Assembly: GCA_030596605.1 (NCBI GenBank)
Contig: JAUVJI010000001.1
Span: 1-64,000 of the forward strand
From: Bacteroidales bacterium
GTDB taxonomy: Bacteria; Bacteroidota; Bacteroidia; Bacteroidales; JAADJA01
Direction of reading: 5' to 3'
DNA length: 64,000 bases
The translations under genes were made by a program, and so were the position numbers. Shown here one piece after another: positions 28,083 to 51,165 of this stretch (its first letter is position 1; each line of letters opens with the position of its first letter). The notes beneath the pieces were generated by a model. That model searched no databases. It was given only the letters and a program-made list of their open reading frames with translations, and was not told where the DNA came from.

Positions 28083-30461
28083 ATGCATCTGGCCAAAAAT
28101 AAAATCCTTTGTTACCAATTCCTTTTCTTTTTTTTAGTTTCAGTTTTCTCTGTATCAGGACAAGACGATTTTATGCAAACCATAAAAGGAATAGTTGTAG
28201 ACAAAAACTCACAATCGTCTTTACCCGGAGCGAATATTATTCTTTTAAATTCGGATCCCCTGGTTGGAACTGTTACTGACTTAAATGGTGAATTTCTTAT
28301 TAATAATGTACCCATCGGAAGACAAGGATTAAAAGTGAGTTTTGTTGGATTTCAAACTTTGGAGTTAACAAATCTTATAATTTCAAGTGCGAAAGAGTTT
28401 TTTATTAAAGTTGAATTAGAGGAAAATATCATTTCTGCCAAAGAAGTCACTATTATCGCTAAAAACCAAAAAGATCAGCCTTTAAATCCAATGGCATTGG
28501 TGAGCGCCAGGTCATTTACAGTAGAAGAAACCAACAAATATGCCGGTAGTTATGGCGACCCTGCACGAATGGTTGCCAATTATGCCGGTGTGGTATCAAC
28601 CCGCGATAATAGAAACGATATTGTAATTCGCGGTAATTCATCCATGGGATTACAATACCGCCTTGATGGAATTGAAATTGCAAATCCAAATCATTTCAGT
28701 GCTTTGGCAACAACCGGAGGACCGGTAACAGTATTAAATACGAACCTTCTGGCAAATTCTGATTTTCTTACCGGAGCTTTTCCTGCTGAGTATGGAAATG
28801 CGTTGGCCGGTGTATTTGATCTCAAATTACGAAATGGCAATACAGATAAAAGGGAATATTGGGCACAACTGGGATTTAATGGTTTGGAAGTGGGTACTGA
28901 AGGGCCTATCTCGAAAAAATCGGGATCTTCTTACCTCGCGGCCTACAGGTATTCTTTTATCGATATACTGGAACGATTAGGAGTTAATTTTAAAGAAACT
29001 GCCCAGTACCAGGACCTGACTTTTAAGGTAAATTTCCCAACGAAAAAAATGGGTAGCTTTAGTATATTTGGTATTGGTGGTATCAGTGAGATTAAAATCC
29101 TGGACTCCAAACTTGATCAAAGCGAATGGACTTTCCCTACACATGGTGAAGATGTAAATACGGGTTCTTCTATCGGAACATTTGGAGTATCAAACCATTA
29201 TTTTATAAATGAAACTACCAGGTTGAAAACATCTATTTCTATTGTTGGATCTATAGTCGATACAAGAATCGATACTTTCAGTGTCAGCGATCCGGATCAT
29301 TTTTTATGGGCAGGGGAAAGATCATCGGAAATCAAGTATGCTATATCCACCTCGCTGAACAAAAAGATAGATATTAAGAACAGCATGAGTGTTGGTTTTT
29401 TTTATGATCTATATGATATAAATTATGCCGACAGCAGTTTTCACCATGGCGACTACAGAATTGATACCGATACCAGGAAAATGTTCAGTCTTTTGAGGGG
29501 TTATGCGCAGTGGCAGCATAAATTCAGTAATTTATTTGAGACTTATCTTGGATTCCATTATCAGTATCTTTTCCTGAATTCAACAAGTTCACTCGAACCA
29601 CGGGCCGGCTTGAAATGGAATATTAATACCGACCAAACCATAAATTTTGGAATCGGGCTGCATAGCCAGATGCAACCCCGGATGATGTATTTTGTGCAGT
29701 CAGTCAATCCTGAAGGAGAATATGAATTGAATAATTTGAATATGGGATTATCAAAGAGTTTGCACGTGATACTCGGCTACAACTGTTTGATTTCCGAATA
29801 CCTGAGGTTTAAAGCGGAAGCCTACTACCAGTATCTCTACAATATTCCTGTTAGCAAGGATATTCCACAATATTCTATTCTGAATGAGGGAACTGAGTAT
29901 TATGTTGACCGGCAAACCAATTTAGTGAACAAGGGAACCGGGAACAATTACGGTATTGAGTTGACTTTTGAAAAGTTCATCCATAAAAATTACTTTTTCC
30001 TGTTTACGACTTCATTATTTGAATCTGACTATAAAGGCTATGATGGTATTAACAGAAGCACATCTTTCAACGGGAATTATGTTTTGAATGCTGTTGGAGG
30101 TTATGAACTTCCGCTTGGTAAGAAAAAATCCAGGGTGTTAATTTTTGGTTTAAGGTTTACGTGGGCAGGGGGCAGGCCTTATGTTCCGTATGACCAAAAA
30201 GCAACCGGCGAACAGCATGAAGTTGTCTACAATTGGGATGATGCCTATAATCAAAGGTACGATGATTACACCAGGGCCAGTTTCAGGCTTGGAATGCGGC
30301 GAAATGAAAGAAAGTTCGGTATCGAATTTGCCATTGACTTGCAATATCGTGCTAATTATACCTATGTTTATCTTTATAGAATAGATGTTGTAACAGGAGA
30401 GATTTATAAAACCTATAAGATGGGATTTTATCCAACAGGCAATTGGAGGATTAATTTTTAA
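28083..30461 (+). CDS. TonB-dependent outer-membrane receptor
   Basis: About 792 residues from the ATG at 28083. It has a signal peptide (FLFFFLVSVFSVSGQ) and a CarboxypepD_reg-like domain (about 38-130: KGIVVDKNSQSSLPGANIIL, VTDLNGEFLINNVP). The plug domain contains VSTRDNRNDIVIRGNSSMGL and the barrel ends in NYTYVYLYRIDVVTGE...NWRINF. It imports a ligand across the outer membrane using TonB energy. No SusD partner is adjacent, so it is probably not a polysaccharide-utilisation receptor; iron chelate or small-molecule uptake is equally possible. Its last ~75 codons are repeated 2 kb downstream. Confidence 0.88.
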   Translation: MHLAKNKILCYQFLFFFLVSVFSVSGQDDFMQTIKGIVVDKNSQSSLPGANIILLNSDPLVGTVTDLNGEFLINNVPIGRQGLKVSFVGFQTLELTNLIISSAKEFFIKVELEENIISAKEVTIIAKNQKDQPLNPMALVSARSFTVEETNKYAGSYGDPARMVANYAGVVSTRDNRNDIVIRGNSSMGLQYRLDGIEIANPNHFSALATTGGPVTVLNTNLLANSDFLTGAFPAEYGNALAGVFDLKLRNGNTDKREYWAQLGFNGLEVGTEGPISKKSGSSYLAAYRYSFIDILERLGVNFKETAQYQDLTFKVNFPTKKMGSFSIFGIGGISEIKILDSKLDQSEWTFPTHGEDVNTGSSIGTFGVSNHYFINETTRLKTSISIVGSIVDTRIDTFSVSDPDHFLWAGERSSEIKYAISTSLNKKIDIKNSMSVGFFYDLYDINYADSSFHHGDYRIDTDTRKMFSLLRGYAQWQHKFSNLFETYLGFHYQYLFLNSTSSLEPRAGLKWNINTDQTINFGIGLHSQMQPRMMYFVQSVNPEGEYELNNLNMGLSKSLHVILGYNCLISEYLRFKAEAYYQYLYNIPVSKDIPQYSILNEGTEYYVDRQTNLVNKGTGNNYGIELTFEKFIHKNYFFLFTTSLFESDYKGYDGINRSTSFNGNYVLNAVGGYELPLGKKKSRVLIFGLRFTWAGGRPYVPYDQKATGEQHEVVYNWDDAYNQRYDDYTRASFRLGMRRNERKFGIEFAIDLQYRANYTYVYLYRIDVVTGEIYKTYKMGFYPTGNWRINF

Positions 30462-30557
30462 TGGAATAAGCGTAGCATAATTTGAAAAGTTGATTTATTT
30501 GTTTTAGTTTTACCATCAACTTAAATTTGGCCTTAATGTTTAATTAAAAACAAAAAA

Positions 30558-30593
30558 ATGAAAAGAGTAAAATTTATTCTTGTTGGATTATAG
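30558..30593 (+). pseudogene. Dead 5' remnant of the downstream secreted-protein gene
   Basis: ATG at 30558 reads MKRVKFILVGL then stops at 30591. It parallels the start of the 32570 gene (MKKVNFILIGFL), and its leader DNA is nearly the same. It is the left copy of a duplicated gene start. Confidence 0.65.
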
Positions 30594-32239: not shown

Positions 32240-32473
32240 TGGGGATTGGGAAAATGCCTACAATGTAAGATACGATGATTATACAAGGGCAAGCTTTCGG
32301 TTTGAATGCGTCGAAATTTTAAAAAAATCAGTATTGAAACTACTATTGATATTCAATACCGTGCTAATTACACCTATGTTTATCTTTACAGGATAGATGT
32401 TGTAACAGGAGATATTTATAAAACCTATAAGATGGGATTTTATCCAACAGGCAATTGGAGGATCAATTTTTAA
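32240..32473 (+). pseudogene. Tail of a TonB-receptor gene (partial duplicate)
   Basis: The segment reads YDDYTRASFR like the intact receptor, shifts frame after it, then returns to frame at YRANYTYVYLYRIDVVTGDI and ends with the same PTGNWRINF stop. It has no start, and the frameshift makes it non-functional. Confidence 0.75.
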
Positions 32474-32569
32474 TGGAATAAGCATAATATAATTTGAAAA
32501 GTTGATTTATTTGTTTTAGTTTTACCATCAGCTTAGAGATAACCTTATTGTTTAATTAAATAAAAAAAA

Positions 32570-33190
32570 ATGAAAAAAGTAAATTTTATCTTAATCGGAT
32601 TTCTGTTAATCGGTTTATCCGCAATGACATCAGCACAGAAAATTAAATTGATATCTGGCTCATGTGACTTTATGAAAGGAATAAGTGAACTTAACTTGGA
32701 GTATGATTACAGTGATTTTGGAGTTGGGAAATTTGTGGATGAGGATGATTATGTTGCAAAAAAGAAGAAAGAGTATAATGAAGATGAGCCGGGTATGGGT
32801 GATACATGGGAAAAATCCTGGATTGCTGACAGAGAAGAAAGATATGAAGTACGATTTGAAGAAGAAATGAATAACCAGTTCAAGAAAAGAAAAGTAGCTA
32901 TTAAGGCCGGCAAAAATTTAGATGCCCAATACACTTTAATATTTAAAACAACTTTTACAGAACCTGGATATAATATATATATATCAAGACAAAATGCATA
33001 CATTGATGCAGATGTGATTATTGTTGAATCATCCAATCCGGATAATGTTTTAGCCAAAATAACCATTGATAATTCCCCGGGCCGCGCTGCTAGCGGCTAT
33101 GATTTTGATACAGGTCTTAGAATTCAGGAAGCATATGCCAAAGCAGGAAAAGAGTTGGTTTATTTTATTTGGAAAAAATTTCTTAAGTAA
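32570..33190 (+). CDS. Secreted hypothetical protein
   Basis: 206 residues with a signal peptide (VNFILIGFLLIGLSAMTSAQ). The mature part has an acidic, charged N-terminal half (EDDYVAKKKKEYNEDEPGMG) and a beta domain (DAQYTLIFKTTFTEPGYNIY, YIDADVIIVESSNPD). It fits small Bacteroidota periplasmic proteins of unknown role that often accompany lipoproteins. It followed the receptor gene before the duplication, so they may share a function. A strong terminator follows. Confidence 0.75.
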   Translation: MKKVNFILIGFLLIGLSAMTSAQKIKLISGSCDFMKGISELNLEYDYSDFGVGKFVDEDDYVAKKKKEYNEDEPGMGDTWEKSWIADREERYEVRFEEEMNNQFKKRKVAIKAGKNLDAQYTLIFKTTFTEPGYNIYISRQNAYIDADVIIVESSNPDNVLAKITIDNSPGRAASGYDFDTGLRIQEAYAKAGKELVYFIWKKFLK

Positions 33191-45981: not shown

Positions 45982-46057
45982 CTTATAGCTGATTTCTGCC
46001 ATTTTTATTTTTAGCGGAATTCTGCTATGGATTTTGGGTACTATTACAATATTTTTG
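45982..46057 (+). promoter_or_regulatory. 49-bp upstream element plus -7 box, copy 1 (peptidase pair)
   Basis: Bases 45982-46030 match 48904-48952 at 48 of 49 positions. The element contains the near-palindrome AGCGGAATTCTGCT (46013-46026). TATTTTTG (46050-46057), a TAnnTTTG -7 box, follows 19 bp after it. The leader would be about 150 nt. The layout suggests an activator site replacing or overlapping the -33 region. Confidence 0.7.
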
Positions 46058-46217
46058 ATGTATAAATTATTAACGACTATTGATTAATATTTAGTAAAAA
46101 AGCATCAATCCTAAATTCGGGATTTATTTTTATTTCTGAGTTGGTAATGTATTATATGGACTTAATAACACACCTTTATATTAACTCACTTTATTGTTTA
46201 ACTAAAATCAAAACAAA

Positions 46218-47081
46218 ATGAAAAATTTAAAAATGGGTTGGATCCCTGATTACCCTGACTTCAGGGATTACGATGAAACAACCAAAGACATTAAGCAGGA
46301 ATTAAACAAAATCAGATTAACCCCTCCCCAGAGTTATAAAATGAAACCTTCCGTTGACCTTAAGCAATGGTTTTCGGATGTTGAAGACCAGGGAAATATC
46401 GGTTCGTGTACAGCCAATGCAGCCGTTGGTGTATTTGAATATTTTCAGCGCAGGGCTTTTGGTCAGCACATGGAAGGATCAAGGCTCTTTTTGTATAAAG
46501 CTACCCGAAACTTAATGGGACTTACAGGAGATACCGGAGCTTACCTGCGTTCAAGTATGGGAGCTATGGTTTTGTTCGGTATTCCGGATGAAAAGTACTG
46601 GCCTTACATTGAAAATGATTATGACATTGAACCACCGGCATTTTGTTATGGCTTTGCAGAAAATTTTAAAGCCACCAAGTATTACAGGCTGGATCAGCAG
46701 GGTATTTCAAAGCAAGGTTTACTGAACAGAATCAAACTGTTCCTGGCTGCCGGCCTGCCAAGCATGTTCGGATTTACAGTTTTCGGTTCAATTAGCCAGG
46801 CGAGCCAATCAGGTGAAATACCATTTCCTTCACAAAAAGAAAATTATCTTGGAGGCCATGCTGTTACTACTGCTGGATATGATGATAGCAAGAAAATAAA
46901 GAATCAGATTGACGGGAAAGAAACAACCGGAGCCTTTTTAATCCGAAATTCCTGGGGAACATCATGGGGCGATAATGGCTATGGATGGCTTCCCTATGAG
47001 TACATTTTACAAGGAATAGCTATCGATTGGTGGTCTGTGATTAAAACTGATTGGGTAGATACCGGTAAGTTCGGGATATAA
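46218..47081 (+). CDS. Papain-like (C1) cysteine peptidase, cytoplasmic
   Basis: 287 residues without a signal peptide. The catalytic Cys is in DQGNIGSCTANAAVG, His in GGHAVTTAGYDD, and Asn in RNSWGTSWGDNGYGW. The start GWIPDYPDFRDYDE matches the 'G..PD..D.RDY' prelude of bacterial C1A peptidases. The length fits the catalytic domain with a short pro-like leader. It is the first gene after the 49-bp element and is followed 89 bp later by the clostripain-like gene. It may process host or stress-signalling proteins. Confidence 0.88.
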   Translation: MKNLKMGWIPDYPDFRDYDETTKDIKQELNKIRLTPPQSYKMKPSVDLKQWFSDVEDQGNIGSCTANAAVGVFEYFQRRAFGQHMEGSRLFLYKATRNLMGLTGDTGAYLRSSMGAMVLFGIPDEKYWPYIENDYDIEPPAFCYGFAENFKATKYYRLDQQGISKQGLLNRIKLFLAAGLPSMFGFTVFGSISQASQSGEIPFPSQKENYLGGHAVTTAGYDDSKKIKNQIDGKETTGAFLIRNSWGTSWGDNGYGWLPYEYILQGIAIDWWSVIKTDWVDTGKFGI

Positions 47082-47170
47082 AATAATATTGATAAGTATC
47101 TTCCCCAATTTCTGAGACAATTATTTTTTTATTACCTAATTTTTAAACAAAAAACAAGGAGGAACAAAAA

Positions 47171-48712
47171 ATGAAAAGTACAAAATTATTAAATACTATT
47201 GAAGCAGGTTGTATTTATCTGCTTATGTTCGGTCTGTTTTCAGGATGTGCACCATACATCAAATCGTTTAATCCAGAAAGCGGAACTTCAGGGACATTAG
47301 TAAATATTAACGGTGGCAGATTTAGTTCAACTGCTGCAGGAAATACTGTAAAATTTGCCAATGCTGTGGTCCCAACATCTGATATTACAGTTACATCAAC
47401 AAGTAAATTAAAAGTAAAAGTTCCAACTGGAGCAACGACTGGTCTCATCTCAGTTTCAACCAGTAAAGGGATAGGTAAAAGTAATAAGAACTTTATCATT
47501 AATAATCAATCACCTAAATGGACTTTTATGGTGTATTTAGATGCGGATAATAATCTGGAATACGCTGGTATTGATGATTTTCTTGAAATGTCTTCAGTTG
47601 GATCTAACAGTAATATTAATATTGTTATTCAGATGGATCGCATAACTGGACATAGTGATGAATATGGAAACTGGACTGGTACAAGACGATTTTTAATTCA
47701 AAGCGGTGATACTCCATCAATCACCCCTGTTATGGATCTTGGTGAACAAAATATGGGAGATCCTAATACCTTAAGTGATTTTGTAGAATGGGCCATTACC
47801 AATTATCCGGCTGATCATTATGCACTATCGATTTGGAATCATGGAGATGGCTGGCGATTAAATCGTAACATCATGGATTCATTAGTTACTCTGAATAGAA
47901 GTGGTTATAATGAAACTCTTGTAAAGGCTGTAGCCAGCGATGATACAGATGGCGATATTTTGTATATGCGCGAGGTTCAAGATGCATTATCCTTAGCAAA
48001 AACTAATCTCGACAATCGAAATAATACCAATGTAAAACTTGATGTTGTTGGATTTGATGCATGTTTAATGGGAATGATAGAAGTAGCATATGCTATTAGA
48101 AGTGTAGCTAATTATATGGTTGGCTCTGAAGAGCTTGAACCAGGTGATGGCTGGCCTTATAACACCATATTGGCAGATTTAAATTCAAATCCGAATATGA
48201 CTGCCGAAGAATTTGCAAAAACCATTGTTGTAAAGTATGAAGATTCATATTCAAGTGGTGTAACCCAATCGACATATGATTTAAGCGAATTAAATAATCT
48301 GACGTCGAGTATCAATAACTTTACAGGTAAAGCAACTACTGATTGGACGGTATTAAAATCTGCCAGAAATAATTCAAGGGATTACCATATTAGTTACTAC
48401 ACTCAATTCTGGGGTACTGATTTATGGGATTTCGCAGATGAAGTATACAACTCGACAAGCAATGTTGATATCAAAAATGCTTCTGCCGATTTAAAAAACG
48501 CTATCGATGCTTTTGTTGTGGAAGAAAAACATAGTTCTGATATGTCAGGTTCACATGGTGTCGCCATATATTTTCCACCTGACCAAAGCAGTTTCAACAA
48601 TGATCCGCAACATACAGGCTATCTTGAGACCAACACGTTTATGGTTGTTGATTTTGTTGCTCACCATACCTGGGATAATTGGCTGCAGGATTATTATATC
48701 AACATACCATAG
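47171..48712 (+). CDS. TIG-domain/clostripain-like (C11) cysteine peptidase, lipoprotein
   Basis: 513 residues with a lipobox (LMFGLFSGC, then APYIKS). An IPT/TIG domain (about 33-113: FNPESGTSGTLVNINGGRFS) precedes a C11 peptidase domain that starts WTFMVYLDADNNLEYAGIDD, with His in WNHGDGW and Cys in GFDACLMGM. C11 enzymes cleave after basic residues and belong to the caspase-like fold. Together with the C1 peptidase it makes a surface/cytoplasm pair under one element. A strong terminator follows. Confidence 0.88.
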   Translation: MKSTKLLNTIEAGCIYLLMFGLFSGCAPYIKSFNPESGTSGTLVNINGGRFSSTAAGNTVKFANAVVPTSDITVTSTSKLKVKVPTGATTGLISVSTSKGIGKSNKNFIINNQSPKWTFMVYLDADNNLEYAGIDDFLEMSSVGSNSNINIVIQMDRITGHSDEYGNWTGTRRFLIQSGDTPSITPVMDLGEQNMGDPNTLSDFVEWAITNYPADHYALSIWNHGDGWRLNRNIMDSLVTLNRSGYNETLVKAVASDDTDGDILYMREVQDALSLAKTNLDNRNNTNVKLDVVGFDACLMGMIEVAYAIRSVANYMVGSEELEPGDGWPYNTILADLNSNPNMTAEEFAKTIVVKYEDSYSSGVTQSTYDLSELNNLTSSINNFTGKATTDWTVLKSARNNSRDYHISYYTQFWGTDLWDFADEVYNSTSNVDIKNASADLKNAIDAFVVEEKHSSDMSGSHGVAIYFPPDQSSFNNDPQHTGYLETNTFMVVDFVAHHTWDNWLQDYYINIP

Positions 48713-48765
48713 AGATTATCAAGAAATATTAATATAACTTTTTGATAATTTTTGGTAAAAGTTTT

Positions 48766-48807
48766 AAGCAAAGTCCTTACAATTTGAATGGGACTTTGCT
48801 TCTTTTA
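48766..48807 (+). terminator. Terminator after the C11 peptidase gene
   Basis: AAGCAAAGTCC (48766-48776) and GGACTTTGCTT (48791-48801) form an 11-bp stem with a 14-nt loop, followed by CTTTTA. The following 48808-48903 holds no gene. Confidence 0.8.
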
Positions 48808-48903
48808 ATAGTATTATCATATAAGACTTAACTTAAACACAACATCTAACATTGGAACTGAATCATGTAATCCTAAATCATAATTTCTATTGTAATTATT
48901 AAA

Positions 48904-48979
48904 CTTATAGCTGTTTTCTGCCATTTTTATTTTTAGCGGAATTCTGCTATGGTTTTTTATTGCAATAATCTTTACTTTG
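48904..48979 (+). promoter_or_regulatory. 49-bp upstream element plus -7 box, copy 2 (pYEATS operon)
   Basis: Bases 48904-48952 repeat the element at 45982 with one substitution. A -7-like TACTTTG (48973-48979) lies 20 bp after it, close to the 19 bp seen in copy 1. The leader would be about 70 nt to the ATG at 49058. Co-regulation of the two operons is the obvious reading. Confidence 0.65.
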
Positions 48980-49057: not shown

Positions 49058-49555
49058 ATGAAAAAGGAAAACTATTTATTAATATTAATTAGTATTTTAA
49101 CAACACTAACGGTTATTGCTGTGCTTATTGCCAACCTTTTTCCTGATAAATATGGGAGTCCAGAATTTAATAAGTTTGGCATGACAGCAGTTCTGGCAGA
49201 AATCATCGGATTATTTGTTCTTATCAGCAAGAAAGTATTTCAGCTTAATGATGTAAATGTATTTTTAACCTTACCGGAAAACACAGAGCCGCAGATTGAT
49301 TGGGACAATGAACATTGTTGGGTGATCGGGGACACAATGAAAGAAAAAATCAAGCTGATACAGACCGATGTGGGACCTGCATACAAAGTTCATTTTAATG
49401 AGGTTGCCAAGAAGAAACTGACAAAAGAAAAGGTGATTGAATTTGAATTAAAGGAAAAGAATGGAAATCCATGGCGCGTAGGTCCATTTAATCTTTTTGA
49501 TAAAACAAGAAATTTACAACCATTAGGAAATATAAATATGTTAAATTATGACTAG
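49058..49555 (+). CDS. Two-helix membrane protein, pYEATS partner
   Basis: 165 residues from the ATG at 49058 (MKKENYLLILISIL); an earlier GTG at 49022 is possible. Two transmembrane helices (LLILISILTTLTVIAVLIAN; MTAVLAEIIGLFVLIS) precede a cytoplasmic beta domain (CWVIGDTMKEKIKLIQTDVG). Its stop overlaps the start of the pYEATS gene by 8 bp, so the two are translationally linked. The likely role is a membrane sensor or anchor for the pYEATS protein. I know of no characterised member. Confidence 0.75.
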   Translation: MKKENYLLILISILTTLTVIAVLIANLFPDKYGSPEFNKFGMTAVLAEIIGLFVLISKKVFQLNDVNVFLTLPENTEPQIDWDNEHCWVIGDTMKEKIKLIQTDVGPAYKVHFNEVAKKKLTKEKVIEFELKEKNGNPWRVGPFNLFDKTRNLQPLGNINMLNYD

Positions 49556-50099
49556 TATAAAAATTAGCAATTACAGTAAGTTATCTTCAAAGAAAGATAA
49601 TACTACCTGGTATGACTGGTGTGTTTTTGTTGATGAACCACTCGCAAGATTAAACCAGATTTCCAAAGTGAAATATATTTTACATCCAACATTTCCAAAT
49701 CCTGAAAGACTTATAAGTGATAAAGATTCAAAGTTTGCACTATATTCAAATGGATGGGGCGTGTTTTTAATTAGAATTGAGATTTATCTGGTGAATGGTG
49801 AGATAATAAAAACAAAGCATCAGCTAAAATTACAGGAGAATGATTGGCCGGTAAAAGAGGTGAACTTGGAAACTCTTGACTCTGAAGAGAGAAAGGTTTA
49901 TGAAACGATTAAAGGTTCATCCTTTAAATGGCGAAAATATCAAACCATTGCAAAGAAAACTGGGATACCCAATCAAGATCTTATAACTTCGCTTGAGAAC
50001 CTCGAAAAGCTCAATTTTATCCGTAAATCACCATTTAAGTCAGTAGACAATGATGAACTTTACGGGGTAACACCCACTGTTGGGATAAAACCTGAATAA
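49548..50099 (+). CDS. pYEATS-domain protein with C-terminal winged-helix
   Basis: 183 residues. The N-terminal ~105 fit the prokaryotic YEATS family: WYDWCVFVDEPLARLNQISK, then VKYILHPTFPNPERL, FALYSNGWGVFLIRIEIYL. The C-terminal ~65 residues read as a winged helix (SSFKWRKYQTIAKKTGIPNQ, then DLITSLENLEKLNFI). pYEATS domains are found beside membrane proteins and peptidases in predicted signalling or conflict systems; the ligand is unknown. Its setting beside a 2TM protein and a phospholipase-like enzyme, sharing a promoter element with two peptidases, supports a stress-response role. Confidence 0.8.
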   Translation: MTSIKISNYSKLSSKKDNTTWYDWCVFVDEPLARLNQISKVKYILHPTFPNPERLISDKDSKFALYSNGWGVFLIRIEIYLVNGEIIKTKHQLKLQENDWPVKEVNLETLDSEERKVYETIKGSSFKWRKYQTIAKKTGIPNQDLITSLENLEKLNFIRKSPFKSVDNDELYGVTPTVGIKPE

Positions 50100-50220: not shown

Positions 50221-51165
50221 ATGAAAAAGTACACACATGCCTGGTTATCCTTAATGGCTATTAAAAGACTTGAACAAAGTTATATCAGCCAAAGTAATCA
50301 GAAATATGCAAGTAGTTTGATAGAATGGTTTAAAAACCATAATGATGATGTAATTCAGGGTGCCTGGTATCCTGATGCAATTATTAAAGATATGTCGACC
50401 AGCCATATTTATAAATTTACAACTTCAAATAGTGGTAATAATTATTATGGCTGTCTTCCTACCTCATATAATATTTATAGGGAAGGGAAGAATTCTGCTC
50501 TTTACAATACATATTATAAACTTGACAGCGGTAATTTACCCTACCGATGTGAAGCCATAGCCCATAGTATTATTGATAATCTCAAAATGAAAGAAAGTGA
50601 AGATAAGGGTTCACCAATCTGTCCAACCAATAATCATATAGCTAATTTGTTTTTTATGTTGAGTCATTATATTGCTGATGCTCATGTTCCATTTCATTGT
50701 GATTCCAGGAAGTTTTCAAGTGGTGTTGATATTCATGCTAAGGTAGAAGGAATTTGGGAGGATTATGTTAAAGATCATTACTTAATAGATCGAAATAATA
50801 AAGATAGATTTGAATATGATGGTATTTATCCAAAACTTGATTCTATCCAACAGACTTCTTATAATAATACAATTCTACCATGGATAGATTTAGAGATTCA
50901 AAATAGAAATTTTTATATTACATGGGGTTCAGGAAATGATAATGTCTTGGAATTTATGCAGGATATTTGTCATTATTCCTATTTGTGTTCCCATTTATTT
51001 ATTCCATCAGCATATGATCATACAACAGTTACAAATGCTAACTGGGATCAATTACAAAACAACATTTCCTTTGATGACCTGAGTAAGTATGTTCTTATTG
51101 ATGCAATTGATTCAATTGCCAGAGTATGGTTGAGGGTATGGAGGAAATATCAGCAGTGGTTATAA
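50221..51165 (+). CDS. Zinc-dependent phospholipase C-like protein
   Basis: 314 residues. The N-terminal KKYTHAWLSLMAIKRL and the central LSHYIADAHVPFHCD carry the His/Asp zinc ligands of the bacterial zinc-dependent phospholipase C/S1-P1 nuclease fold; W-x-P at GAWYPDAI and HxxVEGIWED fit the rest of the site. There is no signal peptide, although the enzymes of this family are usually secreted, so a cytoplasmic or released-on-lysis role is possible. It follows the pYEATS gene by 121 bp. A lipid- or nucleic-acid-degrading effector is plausible. Confidence 0.8.
   Translation: MKKYTHAWLSLMAIKRLEQSYISQSNQKYASSLIEWFKNHNDDVIQGAWYPDAIIKDMSTSHIYKFTTSNSGNNYYGCLPTSYNIYREGKNSALYNTYYKLDSGNLPYRCEAIAHSIIDNLKMKESEDKGSPICPTNNHIANLFFMLSHYIADAHVPFHCDSRKFSSGVDIHAKVEGIWEDYVKDHYLIDRNNKDRFEYDGIYPKLDSIQQTSYNNTILPWIDLEIQNRNFYITWGSGNDNVLEFMQDICHYSYLCSHLFIPSAYDHTTVTNANWDQLQNNISFDDLSKYVLIDAIDSIARVWLRVWRKYQQWL

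Follow-up and report, generated by a model that had tools for sequence, protein, structure and literature searches.

A repeated tandem palindrome in a Bacteroidales genome as a predicted activator site for a NarL/FixJ-type response regulator

We find that a 49-bp element present in two copies in the window (the whole stretch analysed, positions 1-64000 of contig C152, which has 74,096 bases, in a 4.34-Mb assembly of 218 contigs, here G000) is probably a tandem class II activator site for a NarL/FixJ-type regulator encoded on contig C194, whose regulon would include both operons that follow the copies in the window. In the mechanism that we propose, the phosphorylated NarL/FixJ (LuxR-type) response regulator would occupy, as two dimers, a pair of 7-2-7 palindromes that are centred near -42 and -68 at a distance of 26 bp, and once bound it would bring the housekeeping RNA polymerase to a -7 box of the TANNTTTG type that lacks a conserved -33 box. 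What the sequence gives is the motif with its geometry, the sites as a set and their autoregulatory placement, together with the co-occurrence and the co-variation described below; from these we infer binding, activation rather than repression, and a signal.

Results

Structure of the repeat

The two copies form a direct repeat of 54 nt with 96% identity (45982-46035 and 48904-48957), and over the 49-bp span 48 of 49 positions agree (45982-46030 and 48904-48952), as an earlier note on this DNA had claimed. The spacing given in that note was also right, as 19 nt separate the 49-mer from the -7 box in both copies. The single near-palindrome that it described, AGCGGAATTCTGCT, is present in both copies, and at up to two mismatches it has five matches in the window against 0.22 expected from shuffles, but a second palindrome in each copy had been overlooked. 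Each 49-mer thus consists of two palindromes, 26 bp apart from start to start (45986 and 46012; 48908 and 48934), with TAGCTGWTTTCTGCCA at 45986 and 48908 and TAGCGGAATTCTGCTA at 46012 and 48934. Their consensus, TAGCAGA-AT-TCTGCTA, is a 7-2-7 dyad of 16 bp. The 10-bp spacer between the palindromes has 8-10 A/T bases, mostly 10, in all 26 sites checked. The features of the window are as follows.

45982..46030, + strand: element copy 1, predicted tandem operator (repeat comparison; profile E=1.2e-12)
45986..46001, + strand: copy 1 upstream palindrome TAGCTGATTTCTGCCA, at about -68 (motif search)
46012..46027, + strand: copy 1 downstream palindrome TAGCGGAATTCTGCTA, at about -42 (motif search)
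46050..46057, + strand: copy 1 -7 box TATTTTTG, TANNTTTG-like, 22 nt past the palindrome
46218..47081, + strand: papain-like (C1) peptidase gene (Pfam PF00112, 6e-14)
47171..48712, + strand: clostripain-like (C11) peptidase with a TIG domain (PF03415, 6e-55; PF01833, 2e-6)
48904..48952, + strand: element copy 2 (profile E=1.2e-11; 48/49 identical in congener G001)
48908..48923, + strand: copy 2 upstream palindrome TAGCTGTTTTCTGCCA (motif search)
48934..48949, + strand: copy 2 downstream palindrome TAGCGGAATTCTGCTA (motif search)
48972..48979, + strand: copy 2 -7 box TTACTTTG, one mismatch (TAATTTTG in G001)
49058..49555, + strand: two-TM protein without a Pfam match (TM segments judged by eye)
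49548..50099, + strand: pYEATS-domain protein (Pfam PF20305, 1e-18)
50221..51165, + strand: S1/P1 nuclease/phospholipase C-like protein, a weak match below the cut-off (PF02265, E=0.0014)

The N-terminus of the C11 peptidase, judged by eye, is lipoprotein-like. The window also holds a 300-nt direct repeat of 86% identity (30289-30588 and 32301-32600).

Genome-wide set of sites

Genome-wide, the pattern TAGCNGAWTTCTGCNAT at up to one mismatch gave 22 matches (both strands counted) against 0 for the reversed control. The search by which the earlier note had proposed to define a regulon was run with a profile, R1, made from sequence only (12 pairs, 47 nt, without the -7 box) and trained on G000 alone; it returned 16 distinct places in its own genome at E<1e-4, with the next match only at E=0.08. 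Both operons that the note had linked belong to this set, but the set amounts to about 16 promoters rather than two. Besides the C1-C11 and 2TM-pYEATS-nuclease operons of the window, the targets include, at five loci, genes for a small secreted family named "MKATK" after its first residues (C40, C111, C172, C188 and C59). One more site, with which C188 ends, probably belongs to the MKATK gene that opens C194. Further targets are the two-component operon on C194, the operon of a 126-aa protein (C28), genes for secreted proteins (C32, C42 and C195) and that for a thioredoxin-like protein (C120). The remaining two sites, on C193 and the first on C59, have no clear target. The C59 sites use CCACYA, so that half-sites are mixed within one genome, and the MKATK genes at C108 and at C84 of G005 have no clear element; both points count against the proposed regulon. 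AlphaFold predicts a confident core for the MKATK protein (residues 31-90, block means 87-91 pLDDT), for which no PDB fold match was found at E<0.001.

That the copies have no regulatory role and simply stem from the recent duplication of a fragment, or are a short mobile repeat of the REP/MITE kind, is very improbable. The spacer is included in the 48/49 identity, the C1-C11 block between the copies is absent in G001, and the C195 and C147 loci described below suggest the loss of a 26-bp unit, all of which such a repeat would account for. A search with 45 bp of the full element at up to three mismatches, however, recovered the window copies only, and the other sites share the palindromes, the spacing and the -7 box while their spacers and flanks differ; moreover, they stand in front of genes, and sites are found again at orthologous positions in other families. 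The earlier note had named random copies without relation to promoters as evidence against its reading; what we see instead is the exact 26-bp/22-nt geometry before -7 boxes. This fixed promoter geometry largely refutes the mobile-repeat account, which remains as a reason for the spacer identity of the window copies. Against plasmids, blastn with the element gave chance matches only. At G000:C195:690-734 there are two palindromes and at C147:2988 a single remnant between homologous flanks, one 26-bp unit having apparently been lost.

Promoter geometry

Exact TANNTTTG is found in 9 of the 16 sites, only at an offset of 22 nt after the second palindrome; with up to one mismatch, 14 of 16 have it at offset 22 and at most two at any other offset. 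The background for the box was taken from the whole window and is too low for AT-rich intergenic DNA, but the contrast between offsets is independent of it. With the start site at the usual place, the palindrome centres fall near -42 and -68, and no conserved TTTG at -33 was found among the sites. This anatomy is that expected of class II activation, the activating sign being suggested by the layout of the sites.

Alternatively, the same regulator could control the same regulon as a repressor that occludes the promoter near -42 until a signal relieves it. NarL-family proteins can repress, and the downstream palindrome is so close to the -7 box that it would reach into the -35 region. Repressor sites, however, usually tolerate variable positions, and the fixed 22-nt spacing, the -42/-68 pair and the lack of a conserved -33 box fit activation better, so that we regard repression as unlikely. 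On the other side of the balance, the 26-bp spacing places the palindromes about 2.5 turns apart, which differs from classical same-face stacking and counts against a tandem activator.

Candidate regulator and its operon

The candidate is a 212-aa protein with a receiver and a GerE (LuxR-type HTH) domain, encoded at C194:500-1138 (PF00072, 1e-27; PF00196, 7e-16), in an operon that also codes for two TPR/HisKA_3/HATPase sensor kinases and small accessory proteins (Pfam). Among named GTDB genomes, the regulator has relatives of at most 47% identity. The first gene codes for a 105-aa accessory protein (MNKVRF...) with a poor AlphaFold fold, and the -7 box lies close to its start. The element is directly 5' of the two-component operon in G000, G001, G002, G003, G005, G282, G300 and G216. 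Since the C194 operon carries its own element, it is predicted to regulate itself. In G300 and G216 a single tandem site is flanked on either side, at 22 nt, by a -7-like box and may serve both the two-component operon and a divergent MKATK gene.

Among 393 genomes of the order, 7 have MKATK proteins (E<1e-10) and 8 have the accessory protein, with both in six genomes of four families (hypergeometric P=4e-11, before allowing for phylogeny). A second model, R2 (75 nt, including the -7 box), found strong sites in all tested genomes with the accessory gene, among them G003, G011, G216 and G300, which are in neither the R1 nor the R2 training set; in 16 control genomes of the order it gave no match below E=2.5e-3. 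Sites in these four genomes are also found with R1, which lacks the -7 box. At held-out loci the -7 box stands at the offset with up to one mismatch in 11 of 14, several of these having been fetched via R2 and so not being fully independent. The two-component system and the element occur together, and the control genomes have neither. Counting against the proposal, MKATK is missing from the congeners G003 and G011, which do have the element.

The half-sites also vary with the regulator. Regulators of G000, G002, G012, G062, G216 and G300 have the recognition helix SFHTVESHRANL in common, and that of G006 has SFHTVEGHRANL; apart from the G000 regulator itself, these proteins are 72-81% identical to it, although three of the genomes are from other families. 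The helix SFHTVE[SG]HRANL pairs with CTGCYA half-sites in three families. In the congeners G004, G009 and G015 the regulators are only 60-64% identical to that of G000, and the helix is (H/P)YTVEGHRT(S/G)L. At the orthologous place G004 and G009 have CCCCCCTGAAAACCACCG-T10-CGGTGGTTTTCAGGGGGG, and G015 nearly so, with CAGGGG/CCACCG half-sites at the same spacing and a TA.TTTTA box at the matching distance in all three. In G005 the helix YNTVENHRASL goes with TAGTGG....CCACTA pairs. Half-sites therefore change where the helix changes, which, for few lineages, fits the encoded regulator reading the element; the pattern would also fit horizontal spread of the two-component system. The CAGGGG/CCACCG half-sites of G004, G009 and G015 belong to a long palindrome at this orthologous position (L106 3940-4071, L107 6600-6760 and L110 6890-7020).

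A regulator may be encoded far from its sites, and the genome has other LuxR-type regulators on C156, C4, C58 and C201, so another DNA-binding protein could bind the same operator. We find this improbable: the element stands before the C194-type operon in several families, the two co-occur and the helix co-varies with the half-sites, and the C156 protein shares only 39% identity with the C194 regulator. Most likely, it is the C194 regulator that binds the element.

The C1-C11 block

At the corresponding locus the congener G001 carries only one element, without a C1-C11 block between the shared flanks: to the left its sequence agrees with that preceding copy 1 in the window, and to the right with that following copy 2. 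G001 is 76% complete, but it is contiguous at this locus. C11 is absent from the other congeners, except for a distant match in G012. The block and one element thus appear to be one unit, and we propose that recombination within the element either brought it in here or removed it from the congener; the direction of the change can only be surmised from these comparisons. Between copy 2 and G001 the element is identical at 48/49 positions, the next 27 nt at 16/27 and the leader at 73/105, which argues that the element is under constraint whatever the history of the block. The earlier note had read the identity of the two copies as that of a shared activator site. The site geometry throughout the genome supports such a site, but the identity of the copies, spacer included, needs a second cause: it would reflect recent common descent or recombination, and not site selection alone.

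Direct repeats that bound a block present in one genome and absent in another, with junctions inside the element, are also what a specific recombination site would leave, for integration or for inversion as in the invertible promoters of Bacteroidales. This reading leaves unexplained why the distance to the -7 box is fixed and why the element is conserved before one operon across families, and no recombinase gene is seen between 45982 and 51165 (ORFs and Pfam). We give it very little credence.

Discussion

NarL/FixJ regulators bind 7-2-7 sites, in which inverted heptamers flank 2 bp (PMC4549865). A tandem class II site of this kind would share with them the receiver and GerE regulator, the HisKA_3 kinases and the heptamers around 2 bp. 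It differs in that the palindromes come, almost without exception, as a pair 26 bp apart and a fixed 22 nt from a Bacteroidota -7 box, and in that the kinases have N-terminal TPRs and the operon includes uncharacterised accessory proteins. To our knowledge, TAGCAGA is not among the known NarL-type heptamers. Compared with the Bacteroidota housekeeping promoter (-33 TTTG/-7 TANNTTTG), nearly all sites have the TANNTTTG-like -7 box, but they lack a conserved TTTG at -33 and have the operator just upstream.

In P. gingivalis, PorXY-SigP controls type IX secretion, PorX being a receiver-PglZ protein that works with an ECF sigma factor (PMC4800418, PMC8265659). There, as predicted here, a two-component system controls exported proteins in Bacteroidota. 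The C194 regulator, however, has a GerE (LuxR-type) HTH and its promoters look housekeeping (TANNTTTG), so we do not assign the sites to a PorXY-SigP regulon. On contig C92 of G003 a receiver-PglZ (PorX-like) gene is preceded, at a distance of about 300 nt, by a site (L284 1825-1896), which may connect the element to the control of type IX secretion. The invertible promoters of Bacteroidales are flanked by short repeats before genes for exported proteins (PMC4747536). Short repeats 5' of such genes are also present here, but as direct repeats with a fixed promoter spacing; no inversion was seen, and with no recombinase in the interval we do not class the element among these promoters.

Across genomes the targets are mostly exported: MKATK proteins, C1, C10 and C11 peptidases, and type IX tail proteins; AhpC/TSA-like thioredoxins are targets in G000, G002, G006 and G282. 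A type IX sorting tail is present on 7 of 25 chosen targets, and we claim no enrichment of type IX cargo because such tails number at least 150 in each of three genomes. Together with the TANNTTTG promoters, the abundance of these tails assigns the organism to Bacteroidota. With low confidence, we suggest control related to secretion or the envelope. In G006 a C10 (streptopain-like) peptidase with a Spi inhibitor, a CUB domain and a type IX tail lies behind the element (L292 2932-5049). A single-TM micropeptide of 51-72 aa is encoded next to rplI (L029 6461-6649, - strand; L108 6768-6986, + strand; L105 near 1416, - strand) and appears to use the element too, once bidirectionally with an MKATK gene.

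We know of little description of operator specificities for TPR-kinase/LuxR-type systems in Bacteroidota; a search of the open literature gave none, and one on pYEATS and TPR-kinase/LuxR-type regulons gave no useful match. We would propose only tentatively that TPR kinases, LuxR-type regulator, accessory proteins, single-TM micropeptide and MKATK proteins make up an undescribed, horizontally spreading Bacteroidota module, in which operator and helix co-evolve and the operator serves as homology for capturing promoter-gene blocks such as C1-C11. As for the proposed tandem activator site itself, one repeat has led to a defined and testable regulon of uncultured Bacteroidota, for which we name a candidate regulator and predict an operator code, and for which related species supply natural variants of specificity. 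A single predicted signal would then govern the C1 and C11 peptidases, the pYEATS operon and an uncharacterised small secreted family.
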